Below the pieces are notes generated by a model. The model saw only the letters and a list, made by a program, of their open reading frames with translations. It ran no database searches and was not told where the DNA came from. Made by a program: the position numbers and the translations under genes. Positions 2,394 through 5,624 of a stretch of DNA of 64,000 bases are shown here, one piece after another; positions within the stretch are counted from its first letter, which is position 1, and each line of letters starts with the position of its first letter. The DNA is from Alphaproteobacteria bacterium (GTDB lineage Bacteria > Pseudomonadota > Alphaproteobacteria > UBA8366 > Aestuariispiraceae): assembly GCA_024743195.1 (NCBI GenBank), contig JANSXE010000008.1:62001-126000 (forward strand), given 5' to 3'.

Positions 2394-3068
2394 CTATTTC
2401 TTCTGCATCTCCTTGAGTTGGCGCTGCATCTCCGCCAACTGTTCCTGCAGCGATTCGACGCGCGCGGCGCGCTCGTCTTCGGCGTCGGCCGGGGCCGGGG
2501 CGGCGCCTTCCGGGCCGTCGCCGTCCGCGTTCGCGAAGGGGCTGAAGGCGCGCATGGCGCGCTCGAACATCTCCATGTTGCGCTTGCCCATCTCCTCCAA
2601 TTGGCCGAAGGGGAAGACCGCGCCCATGGCGTCTGTCATGTAGGCCCGCATCTTCTCCTGGTTCTCCGCGAAGGAGCGAATGGAGAAGTCGAGATATTGC
2701 GGCAGCATCATCTGCTGCATGTTGTCGCCGTAGAAGCTGATGAGCTGGCGCAGGAAGCTGATCGGCAGCAGGTTCTGCCCCGTCTTCGCCTCCTCCTCGA
2801 CGATGATCTGGGTGAGGACGGAGCGTGTGATGTCTTCGCCCGTCTTCGCGTCATAGACCGCGAAATCGACGCCTTCCTTCACCATGCCGCAGAGATGGTC
2901 CAGCGTGACGTAGCTGCTGGTGGCCGTGTTGTAGAGACGCCGGTTGGCGTATTTCTTGATGGTGATCGGTCCCTGATCGCCGCCCTTGGCGCCCGGCTTG
3001 GCTTTCGGCGCCGACCCGCCGGCGGATGCGGGCTCGCCCTTGTCTTCGTCGGCGTCTTCGTCGGCCAT
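2394..3068 (-). CDS. phaR: polyhydroxyalkanoate synthesis repressor PhaR
   Basis: 224 residues. An acidic, Ala-rich leader precedes the conserved PHB/PHA-accumulation DNA-binding domain (ITIKKYANRRLYNTATSSYV, about residues 29-90), then the PhaR core with LISFYGDNMQQMMLPQYLD and a C-terminal Glu/Gln coiled coil. PhaR binds nascent PHB granules and represses phasin and PHA genes when polymer is absent. The start at 3068 is preferred over an upstream ATG because GGGAG lies 8 bases before it and the residues further upstream are low-complexity. It is divergent from the PhaM-like/phaC pair, which supports the assignment. Confidence 0.93.
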   Translation of the reverse strand: MADEDADEDKGEPASAGGSAPKAKPGAKGGDQGPITIKKYANRRLYNTATSSYVTLDHLCGMVKEGVDFAVYDAKTGEDITRSVLTQIIVEEEAKTGQNLLPISFLRQLISFYGDNMQQMMLPQYLDFSIRSFAENQEKMRAYMTDAMGAVFPFGQLEEMGKRNMEMFERAMRAFSPFANADGDGPEGAAPAPADAEDERAARVESLQEQLAEMQRQLKEMQKK

Positions 3069-3363
3069 TGGTCTCGCTCCCGTTTCGGGCCCGCGTCCGG
3101 GGTCCGACCGCGCGCCTCCGCCCCGCGACGAGGTCCCCGCTCCGCGCGATCTCATAAGGCCATAGTGCACCGCGGAATTGAGCGGCGCAATAGCGCCTCC
3201 GGCGGGACGCCGGGGCGACCCGGCGCGGCCGGCGCGGCCGGCGCGGCCACCCTGGAGCCGGCGCCGCGCATGGTCTATAGTCCCGCCGAACCCGAGCCGG
3301 GCGACGCGCCCGGGCCGGCGCCGGGGCTTCCGGCGCAGCGAAGGCGGCGGACAGGGACGCTGA
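3069..3363. other. phaR / PhaM-like intergenic region with short tandem repeat
   Basis: A 295-base divergent promoter region. It holds three copies of the nonamer GGCGCGGCC at 3222-3248. No clear PhaR operator could be picked out by eye, and nothing here looks coding. Confidence 0.5.
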
Positions 3364-3984
3364 ATGGCGAGCGATCCGGGAAAGCCCGGCGAAGAATTGA
3401 GCGACCTTGCGGAGCGTTTCTTCGACCTCTGGCGCGAGCAACTGACCCTGATGGCGGACGACCCCGCCGCGGCGGAGGGCGCCGCCGCGCTCGCCCGCTT
3501 CTGGCAACCCTTCCTGTCGGCGGGCGCCGCGCCCTGGGGCGCGCCCGGGGCGTCCCCCTCCGCGTTGACGCCGGAGACTCTGGCGCAGGCCTTTGCGGGG
3601 CTGCAGGCCGCGGCTGCCGGATCTTCTGCGGGATCTTCTGCGGGATCCGCTGCGGGATATTCTGGGGGATCGAGCGATGACGGATCACTGCGCCCGCCGC
3701 CCGCCGGGTCCGGGAACGCGGATCGGTCCGCGCCCGCTGCCGCTGCACCTGATGAGCGCGATCGGCTGCTCCGTGAGCTCGATCGCCGCCTCCGTGGCCT
3801 TGAGGAGCGGCTCGACGCCTTGGAACGCGACGCTGGCCCCGGAGGCGCAGGCCCTCACTCGGGCGCTCGCGGATCTGGCGGAAAGGCGGGCGGCGGAAAG
3901 GCGGGCGGCGGAAAGGCGGGCGGCGGAAAGCGCGCCGCCGCAAGACGCGGGAAGGCGAAGCGACCCGACGCCCGACGCCGCTGA
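3364..3984 (+). CDS. PhaM/PhaE-like coiled-coil protein with Lys/Gly-rich tail
   Basis: 206 residues, not assigned to a family with certainty. The N-terminal 45 residues are helical (ELSDLAERFFDLWREQL). A Ser/Ala/Gly-rich linker made by a 12-base DNA repeat follows at about residues 86-102, then a heptad coiled coil (LLRELDRRLRGLEERLDALE, about 137-157). The basic tail contains GGKAG units and ends KRAAARRGKAKRPDARRR. The layout recalls granule proteins that bind synthase through a coiled coil and DNA through a histone-like tail (PhaF, PhaM), and also class III PhaE. It sits directly before a class III-like phaC, and its last 308 bases overlap that gene in another frame. The role as synthase partner is inferred. 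Confidence 0.6.
   Translation: MASDPGKPGEELSDLAERFFDLWREQLTLMADDPAAAEGAAALARFWQPFLSAGAAPWGAPGASPSALTPETLAQAFAGLQAAAAGSSAGSSAGSAAGYSGGSSDDGSLRPPPAGSGNADRSAPAAAAPDERDRLLRELDRRLRGLEERLDALERDAGPGGAGPHSGARGSGGKAGGGKAGGGKAGGGKRAAARRGKAKRPDARRR
3619..3666 (+). repeat. four 12-bp tandem repeats
   Basis: Units of the form GGATCTTCTGCG occur at 3619-3630, 3631-3642, 3643-3654 and 3655-3666, the last two diverged. They encode the SSAG/SAAG/YSG linker of the PhaM-like protein. The drifted end of the fourth unit, a run of five G at 3664-3668 then A, serves as the Shine-Dalgarno sequence of phaC. Confidence 0.9.
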
Positions 3985-5104
3985 AGCGCCGGACCGAGCG
4001 GCGGAGGCCGCGCGGGACGCGCTCTGGCGGGATTTCTCCGCGGCCGTCCAGGCCGCGGCGCTGGGCCGCCTGGACGCCATGCTGACGGGGATCGAGCGCT
4101 ATCGGCGCCACCCCTATCGGCGCGATCTCGATCCGCCGCCGGCGCTTTGGCGCGAAGGGTCGGCGGCGCTGCTGGATTTCCGGGGTCTGCGCGCCGGGCC
4201 TGCGACGGGCGCGGTCCTGCTGACGCCGTCGCTGGTCAATCGCGCCTATGTGCTAGACCTCTCCGCGGAATGCAGCCTGGCCCGGTGGCTCGCCGGGCGC
4301 GGGCTCGACGTCTTCGTGATGGATTGGGGCGCGCCGGGCCTCGAGGAACGGGGCTTCACGTTGGCCGACTATGTGGCGCGCCTCGGCCGCGCCGCGCATC
4401 GGGCGGCGGAGGCGGCGGGCCGTCCGGTTGGCCTTCTCGGCTATTGCATGGGCGGCTTGCTGGCCTTGCCGCTGGCGACCGGTTTTCTTGGACCGGCGCC
4501 GCCGATCGACCGGTTGGTCCTGATGGCGGCGCCCTGGGATTTTCATGCGGAGCAACCGGCCAAGGCGCGCTCCCTGGGCGCGCTCGCCGCGGCGTTCGAG
4601 CCGATGACGGCGGCGGTCGGGGTGCTGCCCGTCGACGTCATCCAGGCGCTGTTCGCGGCGCTCGACCCGTTTCTCGTCATGCGCAAATTCGCCGCCTTCG
4701 CGCGCATGGCGCCGGATGGGGCGCGGGCGCGCGGCTTCGTCGCGCTGGAGGATTGGTTGAACGACGGGGTGGCTCTGGCCGCGCCCGTGGCGCGGGACTG
4801 CCTCGCCGGTTGGTACGGCGAAAACCGGCCGGCCCGCGGGAGCTGGCGGCTCGGCGGATTCGCGGTCCGGCCGGAGGCGCTGGCCGTCCCGGCTTTGGCC
4901 CTGGCGCCCGCGGGCGACCGCATCGTGCCGCCCGCCTCGGCGCGCGCGCTGGCGCGCGACCTGGCGGCGACGGGACCCGGATGCCGCCTGATCGAGCCGC
5001 CGGTCGGCCATATCGGCATGATCGTGGCCCAACAGGCGCAGACTGCGGTCTGGGAGCCGGTGCGCGCCTTCCTGAGCGCAGCCGATCCGGCGCGCGCCGC
5101 CTGA
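3677..5104 (+). CDS. phaC: short (class III-like) poly(3-hydroxyalkanoate) synthase
   Basis: 475 residues with an alpha/beta-hydrolase fold. It polymerises (R)-3-hydroxyacyl-CoA into storage polyester at the granule surface. The lipase-like box is GYCMGG (about residue 256), with Cys as nucleophile in place of Ser. VFVMDWGAPG, ALAPAGDRIVPP (Asp) and PPVGHIGM (His) supply the rest of the expected triad region. Length and absence of the long class I N-terminus fit the short alphaproteobacterial synthases. The start at 3677 is chosen because a GGGGGA sequence lies 7 bases upstream and because the segment RPLPLHLM...LRSGSTPWN looks like the conserved N-terminus of this group. A later ATG at 4079 would remove it. 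The first 308 bases overlap the upstream gene out of frame. Confidence 0.85.
   Translation: MTDHCARRPPGPGTRIGPRPLPLHLMSAIGCSVSSIAASVALRSGSTPWNATLAPEAQALTRALADLAERRAAERRAAERRAAESAPPQDAGRRSDPTPDAAEAPDRAAEAARDALWRDFSAAVQAAALGRLDAMLTGIERYRRHPYRRDLDPPPALWREGSAALLDFRGLRAGPATGAVLLTPSLVNRAYVLDLSAECSLARWLAGRGLDVFVMDWGAPGLEERGFTLADYVARLGRAAHRAAEAAGRPVGLLGYCMGGLLALPLATGFLGPAPPIDRLVLMAAPWDFHAEQPAKARSLGALAAAFEPMTAAVGVLPVDVIQALFAALDPFLVMRKFAAFARMAPDGARARGFVALEDWLNDGVALAAPVARDCLAGWYGENRPARGSWRLGGFAVRPEALAVPALALAPAGDRIVPPASARALARDLAATGPGCRLIEPPVGHIGMIVAQQAQTAVWEPVRAFLSAADPARAA
3877..3930 (+). repeat. 15-bp tandem repeat shared by two reading frames
   Basis: Three full copies of GGCGGAAAGGCGGGC (3877-3891, 3892-3906, 3907-3921) and a partial fourth. 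In the frame of the PhaM-like gene they encode GGKAG units; in the phaC frame they encode RRAAE units. One expansion event has therefore lengthened two proteins at once. Confidence 0.9.
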
Positions 5105-5126: not shown

Positions 5127-5624
5127 CTAGCCGTCCCGTCGCACGTCCTCGAACGGGGCTCCGGTGATGCGGGCGAGCTGCGTCGGCGTCAGCCGGAACA
5201 CCGCATTGGGGGCGCCCGCCGCGGCCCAAATCTCCGCATGCGCCAGGAGATCGCGGTCAAGCAGCGCGATCGGGGCCTCCCGGTGGCCGGCCGGCGGGAC
5301 GCCGCCGATGGCGAAGCCGGTTCGCGCGCGCACGAAGTCGGCGTCGGCGCGGCCGATCGATTGGCCGATCAGGCCCGCAACCTTCTTCTCGTCGACCCGG
5401 TTTACGCCGCTGGCGACGACCAGAACCGGCCGATCGTCGCCTTCGGCCCGCAGGATGATCGATTTGGCGATCTGGGCGGGCGTGCAGCCGATGGCGGCGG
5501 CCGCGTCCTTCGCCGTGCGGGTGGAGGCGGGAAACTCCGCCACCTCCAGGTCGAGGCCGAAGGCGTCGAGCGCGGCCTGCAAGCGCTGCGGGCCGGACTT
5601 CTTGGGTGGGATGTCGTCGCCCAT
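5127..5624 (-). CDS. YbaK/ProX-family aminoacyl-tRNA deacylase
   Basis: 165 residues of a single YbaK/EbsC domain. Typical segments are [31 protein letters not shown] and a [12 protein letters not shown] loop. Proteins of this family hydrolyse mischarged tRNA (Cys-tRNA(Pro) or Ala-tRNA(Pro)) in the cytoplasm; the exact substrate cannot be set by eye. It is convergent with phaC across 22 bases, and its promoter lies toward the cyclase gene. Confidence 0.88.

Follow-up and report, generated by a model that had tools for sequence, protein, structure and literature searches.

Organization of the phaC locus

The window analyzed in the present study, a stretch of 64,000 nucleotides of alphaproteobacterial DNA, contains the PHA synthase gene phaC and, on the same strand, an upstream reading frame that ends within phaC. 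We refer to this upstream frame as the hidden gene and to its product as the hidden protein. The features of the locus are summarized in Table 1. phaC lies in the +1 frame of the hidden ORF, its start codon is located 313 nt past the hidden ATG, and the third position of a phaC codon is the first position of a hidden codon. The preliminary description had noted a heptad helix and a basic tail in one frame of the overlap and a PhaC N-terminus, RPLPLHLM...SGSTPWN, in the other, and we found both.

Table 1. Features of the hidden gene-phaC locus (positions within the window)
Feature	Position	Strand	Remarks and basis
phaR, divergent PHA synthesis regulator	2394..3068	-	Start taken at the ATG ending at 3068
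TATAGT, -10-like box	3276..3281	+	88 nt ahead of the hidden ATG in the window
AGGGA, Shine-Dalgarno-like, hidden gene	3353..3357	+	6 nt ahead of the ATG; read from the sequence
Hidden upstream gene	3364..3984	+	ATG start, 206 aa; ORF and homologues in relatives
Hidden protein parts, N- to C-terminal			Helix with LAERFFDLWREQL; low-complexity linker; coiled coil; basic tail
GGGGGA, Shine-Dalgarno-like, phaC	3664..3669	+	7 nt spacing; read from the sequence
phaC, PHA synthase	3677..5104	+	ATG start, 475 aa
Overlap of the hidden gene and phaC	3677..3984	+	308 nt; selection on both frames
PhaC N-terminal motif GPRPLPLHL	3725..3751	+	GPRP present in 186/225 loci; column counts
PhaC residues 21-44, predicted helix	3737..3808	+	AlphaFold2 model
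Hidden-protein coiled coil, residues 129-156	3748..3831	+	AlphaFold2 model; heptad spacing, 186 loci
Hidden-protein basic tail, probably disordered	3844..3981	+	K+R fraction vs phaC-preserving shuffles
15-bp tandem repeat, 3.6 copies, within the overlap	3877..3930	+	TRF; translations

The divergent regulator gene matched TIGR01848 (143.9 bits; cut-off, 109.45) as well as PF07879 and PF05233. phaR was divergent and upstream in 153 of the 156 intact loci (defined below) with enough flanking DNA. An ORF on the minus strand (5127-5624) is convergent with phaC and adjoins its 3' end; we take its product to resemble a YbaK-type deacylase. phaA and phaB follow phaC in Azospirillum, but do not adjoin it in the window.

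The 15-bp repeat is read as KAGGG in the hidden frame and as RRAAE in PhaC, so that it lengthens both proteins and breaks neither. This repeat may partly account for the above-median length of the overlap in the window. Right before the phaC start, hidden-only DNA carries a 12-bp repeat (3614-3671; 4.8 copies, 82% matches) that encodes a Ser/Gly/Ala run. A good ribosome site had been claimed for the phaC ATG at 3677. The site exists and is only moderate: GGGGGA counts as Shine-Dalgarno-like by the looser of two motif lists and not by the stricter one.

The NCBIfam model nearest to the window PhaC was that of class III (TIGR01836), at 149.2 bits, which is under the cut-off of 365.3 bits. In a Foldseek comparison of the AlphaFold2 model of PhaC (m6a2ff4085fe7; mean pLDDT 92.4) with the PDB, the top 15 matches were all solved PHA synthases, the best being 9knj. 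C257, D414, and H445 were invariant in 42 aligned PhaC proteins; they are the Cys-Asp-His triad in the alpha/beta hydrolase fold, an assignment made in this analysis. The window PhaC belongs to an alphaproteobacterial subfamily of PHA synthases, to which class III is the nearest class. The window genome has one further PhaC-like match, on contig C3.

The helix of PhaC encoded within the overlap had block pLDDT values of 97 and 93 (residues 21-40) and 81 (residues 41-50). Ahead of GPRP, the only in-frame ATG, GTG, or TTG besides ATG 3677 is TTG 3593. Since GPRP lies downstream of 3677 and TTG 3593 is the sole alternative start, homology argues against a PhaC start at 4079. This late start was ruled out by the conserved GPRP N-terminus together with the shuffle test described below. 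Outside the class (398 genomes of the phylum sampled; E<=1e-50), PhaC matches aligned mostly from profile position 66, and those that began earlier read through a stop codon. Therefore, the N-terminal region of PhaC looks alphaproteobacterial in this sample.

Distribution of the overlap

A contig scan for PhaC yielded 80 loci. PhaC matches were present in 69 of 98 relatives (E<=0.001; some were of other PhaC types only) and in 126 of 289 genomes of the class (E<=1e-20; a few were canonical class III). The 241 loci found by PhaC similarity were reduced to 225 that were distinct and usable, 198 of which were anchored by a loose and 186 (window included) by a strict GPRP motif. Loci were regarded as intact when the hidden frame was open for at least 150 nt before GPRP and ended at least 106 nt after it. 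This register, with both frames open, was shared by 175 of the 186 GPRP loci, and these 175 intact loci were condensed to 131 non-redundant ones. The non-intact GPRP loci were L129, which reaches a contig end, and L171, L179, L182, L200, L209, L211, L212, L216, L223, and L227. Of the 50 loci outside the intact set, 14 had a match resembling the coil in the same relative frame.

We assigned a hidden start to 169 of the 175 intact loci (125 non-redundant) and a PhaC start to 172. ATG accounted for 167 of the 169 hidden starts, a proportion that is partly built in because the rule preferred ATG and a DLW-like motif. Measured between the PhaC start that we chose and the hidden stop, the overlap was 125-320 nt long (median 215; 172 loci); measured from GPRP to the same stop, it was 107-260 nt long (median 164; 175 loci). 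Alignments were made of 52 chosen hidden proteins (A1) and 42 chosen PhaC sequences (A2). The invariance of G17-P20 in A2 has no evidential value because its rows were picked for GPRP.

At one locus (L119; G012, C310), phaC is seemingly split over two frames, with a DLW motif and a coil upstream; this may be a pseudogene or a sequencing error. The phaC ORF of L006 is identical to that of L086 (G011, of the window's family); the record of L006 is titled Mesoflavibacter, and this MAG label looks wrong.

Coding content of the two frames

We re-coded the overlap synonymously and scored the other frame. Averaged over 131 loci, 70% of the phaC-preserving shuffles had an open hidden frame across the 34-codon block. 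An open frame alone is therefore weak evidence in GC-rich genomes, and we set frame openness aside as evidence for the hidden gene. The frames were scored instead against profiles that left out loci with at least 70% identity over the block. When PhaC was preserved, the hidden profile score was matched by none of 300 shuffles in 117 of 131 loci; when the hidden protein was preserved, the PhaC score was matched by none of 300 in all 131.

The test was rerun with open shuffles only (up to 600) because the loci had been picked for GPRP and an open frame. With PhaC kept, the hidden score was beyond every open shuffle in 117 of 131 loci, and under 1% of them reached it in 123. The exceptions, with at least 1%, were eight loci (L051, L060, L068, L134, L135, L172, L190, and L224). 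With the hidden protein kept and the GPRP positions left out, no open shuffle reached the PhaC score in any of 129 loci, two others having under 30 open shuffles. In the first run, with 300 shuffles, the window locus (L001) gave 0/300 both ways, with z values of 3.9 (hidden) and 6.2 (PhaC), and similar results were obtained in AT-richer genomes (L131 [GC 0.40], L111, and L101). As the loci are related by descent, these figures are counts and not independent trials.

Overlap-aware substitution rates were calculated over 32 codons from 47 pairs, with each locus used once and pairs chosen on phaC-only identity. These rates are simple JC-corrected counts with only 29 SS sites. Across the whole block, dNN/dNS of the hidden frame was 0.61 (0.44-0.79) and dNN/dSN of phaC was 0.28 (0.19-0.38). 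The coil part gave 0.39 (0.27-0.53) and 0.34 (0.23-0.46), respectively, indicating purifying selection on both. In the linker part, the hidden frame was unconstrained at 1.51 (0.98-2.44) and PhaC strongly constrained at 0.23 (0.15-0.33). Third-position divergence at four- and six-fold codons for the same amino acid was 0.161 in the coil, 0.272 in the linker, and 0.330 in phaC alone. Pairs chosen by overlap identity, which is a biased choice, gave the same picture. In the hidden frame, most codons of GPRPLPLHL become xCx (A/P/S/T), which makes a cheap linker and leaves the hidden protein unconstrained there.

The overlap is most probably conserved dual coding in many alphaproteobacterial relatives, which is rare in bacterial DNA. 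The preliminary description had proposed that two real genes use the same 308 nt in different frames, and the ORFs, their register, and selection agree with this proposal. It had asked whether PhaC is conserved before approximately residue 135 and whether the upstream frame is unbroken in relatives; GPRP was present in 186 of 225 loci, and the hidden frame was intact in 175 of the 186. Judged from the substitution rates, there is purifying selection on both frames, in the hidden frame on the coil part only. The statement that any mutation would affect both proteins was too strong, given the unconstrained linker.

Loci without the hidden frame

With L129 set aside, ten of the GPRP loci have no hidden frame, and all ten scored under the 5-95% range of intact loci in that frame (20.2-71.4). 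In the PhaC frame, three were within the intact range of 44.9-86.2: L179 (68.9), L211 (48.4), and L212 (45.2). These three keep the hidden N-terminal motif and have a stop 10-28 nt ahead of GPRP. The other seven fell below the PhaC range, four at 19-40 and L216, L227, and L223 near or under zero.

We constructed a FastTree tree of 107 rows (half of the non-redundant set and a chosen list), many inner branches of which are weak. L171/L182, L179, L209, L200, and L128 were placed among overlap loci, which suggests losses of the hidden frame. L230, L228/L231, L138, L211/L212, and L136/L221/L226, all without the overlap, were near the base of the tree. In 9 of the 107 rows, the frame was open and the coil was absent by pattern. 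In family f16, eight of nine loci (L263 and L265-L271) have a short PhaC N-terminus and no long open hidden frame; the N-terminal motifs of this family are GPRPLPLFL, GPRPLPLFI, GPRPLPLFM, or APRPLPLFL.

Signals for transcription and translation

In 89 of 125 loci, the hidden ATG was preceded by a TATAAT-like box (at most one mismatch) that started 16-10 nt ahead of it. Random upstream positions gave 2.4 loci on average and no more than 8 in any of 200 draws, and the phaC start gave 0. In a wider range, the box was found in 90 of 125 loci vs 4.4 expected, and in 80 of 125 it was 12-14 nt before the hidden ATG. When every ATG within 700 nt upstream of GPRP was considered, a box preceded 102 of 834 in the hidden frame vs 6 of 509 and 3 of 357 in the two remaining frames; this test is independent of the hidden-start rule. 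A spacing of 10-16 nt fits a leaderless mRNA. In the window and at L003, the box was not at -12 to -14 but farther off.

Shine-Dalgarno-like sites were present at only 6% of hidden starts (125 loci). This result fits leaderless messages and would otherwise argue against translation. At phaC ATG candidates, such sites were present in 31% of 112 loci vs 12% at random positions. The hidden gene probably heads a leaderless mRNA in most of the relatives examined, and not in the window genome.

Certain 7-mers, for example TGCTGCA (29 of 125 loci; 1.4 expected) and ATGCTGC (24; 0.9 expected), were enriched 130-18 nt upstream of the hidden gene in relatives. They are possibly the PhaR operator.

Properties of the hidden protein

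The median length of the hidden protein was 151 aa (169 loci). In 52 aligned members, the consensus was LARRYLDLWQxQ for the N-terminal helix and LxELxRRLAALExRLAxLE for the coil. L15, A16, D33, and P34 were present in at least 90% of these members, in an N-terminus that lies outside the overlap; W23, D21, and L22 were also conserved, but the start-choice rule looked for them. Counted ungapped from GPRP in 186 loci, majority hydrophobic residues occurred at offsets 15, 18, 22, 25, 29, and 32, a 3-4-3-4-3 spacing. The AlphaFold2 model of the hidden protein (md1ab8ef5410c) had a mean pLDDT of 68, with values near 90 for a helix at residues 10-31 and low values in the tail. Block values over the coil were 77 (residues 121-130) and then 90, 97, and 82 up to residue 160. 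Thus, two structured parts, the PhaC helix and the hidden coil, are predicted from the same DNA. The mean K+R fraction of the tail was 0.310 vs 0.194 in phaC-preserving shuffles (118 of the 131 non-redundant loci taken in), and the tail was more basic than the null at p<0.05 in 59 of the 118. In L186, L252, L254, and L255 (family f159), a long Lys/Ser/Thr/Ala-rich linker precedes the coil, unlike in most hidden ORFs.

Searches with the 52 members did not reveal a Pfam or NCBIfam family of the hidden protein's own. A generic coiled-coil family, DUF7310, was touched by 27 of the 52 (best E 0.00071), and none of the 24 Pfam families matched at E<=0.1 was a phasin family. A PDB sequence search with the hidden protein gave weak or coiled-coil matches only, the best being a designed coiled coil (E 8.2e-6), and a Foldseek comparison of its model found no chain.

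A profile search of 278 class genomes gave matches to the hidden protein in 102 at E<=1e-4; some of these genomes had supplied profile rows, and the match of the window gene is by construction because it is part of A1. All 79 strong matches (E<=4.2e-11; 77 genomes) were on the same strand and at most 1.3 kb upstream of phaC. Some weaker matches (down to 8.8e-5) sit away from phaC. In Azospirillum plasmid records that contain the hidden gene, phaC was the only feature annotated under it in seven of seven, and five of these tables list no gene between phaR and phaC (PLSDB tables, which are incomplete). The hidden gene appears to have been missed by annotation.

Discussion

We consider it highly probable that the locus represents genuine dual coding over a wide range of Alphaproteobacteria, with the hidden gene placed first on the phaC mRNA. 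A promoter between phaR and phaC would drive this mRNA. In the window, the distant box would give a leader of approximately 75 nt with a Shine-Dalgarno-like site, and in most relatives the message would be leaderless. Ribosomes would also initiate at the phaC start in the +1 frame, and the hidden frame would continue to its own stop 125-320 nt on. We infer the translation of both frames and the leaderless start from sequence features. The shared DNA would give rise to the N-terminal helix of PhaC and to the coiled coil and basic tail of the hidden protein. Translation of the synthase had been proposed to be tied to that of its likely partner; since phaC starts 308 nt ahead of the end of the hidden stop, the geometry is not that of the usual stop-start coupling.

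By analogy, the hidden protein may work like PhaM or PhaE as a small synthase partner with a coiled coil and a basic tail. Its N-terminal helix may bind PhaC, its coil may oligomerize, and its tail may touch DNA or the granule. The arrangement resembles that of class III PhaE-PhaC (PF09712, TIGR01836), in which the small-subunit gene is directly upstream of a short PhaC. The PhaE proteins that we looked at end in a coiled coil, some with a Lys/Ala-rich tail, as does the hidden protein. PhaE is longer in the five class III loci (232-421 aa) than the median hidden protein. phaE and phaC are separate in three of these loci (3 nt apart in Rhizobium indicum and L242) and overlap by 4 nt in L245; in L244, the longest mechanical ORFs, with starts unassigned, overlap by 119 nt.

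The PhaM gene lies elsewhere, not beside phaC. Passages of PMC9049629 describe PhaM of Cupriavidus necator as a synthase activator that provides a link to the nucleoid, with a DNA-binding C-terminal part containing PAKKA motifs. Tails of hidden proteins are often Lys/Arg/Ala-rich and may in this resemble PhaM as described. A difference is that PhaM partners a class I PhaC. The PhaM/PhaE-like character proposed in the preliminary description is borne out by the position before phaC and by the helix, coil, and basic-tail architecture, and not by the sequence: only 1 of 52 hidden proteins matched PF09712 (PhaE) at E<=0.1 (best 0.0021). Homology to PhaE was rejected after hhalign against five PhaE proteins gave a non-significant probability of 2.7%. 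A PF09712 search of 190 class genomes gave matches in four, and the window genome was not among them.

We rank the synthase partner first, and a granule-nucleoid linker or a regulator second. The overlap may be real and the hidden protein not a synthase partner, acting as a linker of granule and nucleoid without an effect on PhaC or as a regulator. This alternative is unlikely, but deserves consideration. The undetectable homology to PhaE, the basic tail, and the strong linkage to phaR as well as phaC are in its favor. However, all 79 strong matches are located before phaC, as is phaE in the five class III loci.

It is very unlikely that PhaC alone is real in the overlap and that the overlapping end of a hidden ORF, genuine upstream, is a by-product in GC-rich DNA. 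In its favor, the hidden frame would be open by chance in approximately 92 of the 131 loci, 11 of 186 loci lack an open frame (L129 at a contig end), several of them among overlap loci in the tree, and at least 1% of open shuffles match the hidden score in 8 of 131 loci. However, in 117 of 131 loci no open phaC-preserving shuffle matched that score, the hidden coil is constrained (0.39; 0.27-0.53), the tail is more basic than the null in half of the loci (59 of 118; p<0.05), and all ten loci without the hidden frame scored under the intact range in it.

Programmed +1 frameshifting may join the two frames into one fusion protein, as would suit their common strand, +1 relation, and long common stretch. 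We regard this as even more improbable. The higher frequency of Shine-Dalgarno-like sites at phaC ATG candidates (0.31 of 112 loci vs 0.12 at random) and the variable distance of the hidden stop from GPRP (107-260 nt) argue against it.

The converse possibility is that the hidden gene alone is genuine within the overlap and that PhaC starts later, its apparent N-terminus being an artifact. The class III profile covers PhaC only from residue 156, and matches outside the class align mostly from position 66, as this would predict. However, with GPRP left out, the PhaC score was never reached by a hidden-preserving open shuffle (129 of 129 loci), the helix at residues 21-44 is predicted with pLDDT values mostly above 90, GPRPLPLF-type N-termini occur in family f16 in the absence of the hidden gene, and PGAP places the phaC start upstream of the motif in five Azospirillum records. 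We consider this possibility extremely remote. An RNA element in the phaC leader is of equally slight probability as the source of the conservation: in folding, the overlap did slightly better than shuffled sequences (z -1.6), but this value is weak (9 of 100 shuffles were at least as good), positions 3200-4200 had no Rfam match, the pattern follows heptads and the codon positions in two frames, and protein-level conservation is also seen in the hidden N-terminus, outside phaC.

When bacterial genes on one strand seem to overlap over a long stretch, this is usually put down to faulty annotation. Known cases include rpmH/rnpA in Thermus and comS in srfA, and in the present locus, as in such long overlaps, both frames of one strand would code. 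A 2008 survey of 715 co-directional overlaps of at least 60 bp judged none to be real, as stated in passages of PMC2478687. Unlike the overlaps in those passages, the present one is conserved and under selection in each of its two frames, as seen in many families within a single class. Passages of PMC2542354 explain the phase bias of overlaps by composition, which is why shuffle controls matter.

Titles and the beginnings of abstracts among open-access PMC articles gave no description of this overlap or, for this group, of a gene missing from annotation ahead of phaC. In passages of PMC4026134 and PMC9999600, the operon of Rhodospirillum rubrum is treated as phaC1-phaA-phaB. By our own reading, a phaC1 primer encodes VEDWLN, which is close to the EDWLN motif of the window PhaC family; we note this as a lead only. 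The R. rubrum phaC1 defined by published primers had no match among 277 loci. Phasins of A. brasilense were studied in PMC6761214, the passages of which do not mention the hidden gene.

We speculate that the two proteins constitute a widespread two-subunit PHA synthase in Alphaproteobacteria, which assembles as its subunits are made and in which the shared DNA encodes both sides of the interface. This broader proposal is doubtful at present. If it is correct, the small subunit would have gone unannotated because it is encoded by a leaderless first gene and its coil lies in the bases of the PhaC helix.

The overlap may be tested in many species; it offers natural cases without one frame and a constraint that is divided along the DNA. 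For Azospirillum and other PHB producers, the present results suggest that a protein next to the PHB synthase has been overlooked. Therefore, in vitro work on phaC alone, mutants, and heterologous expression may have lacked a subunit, and the choice of a phaC start that is too late may likewise have cost such work a subunit. Moreover, the deletion of a phaC "leader" would take out the hidden gene too.
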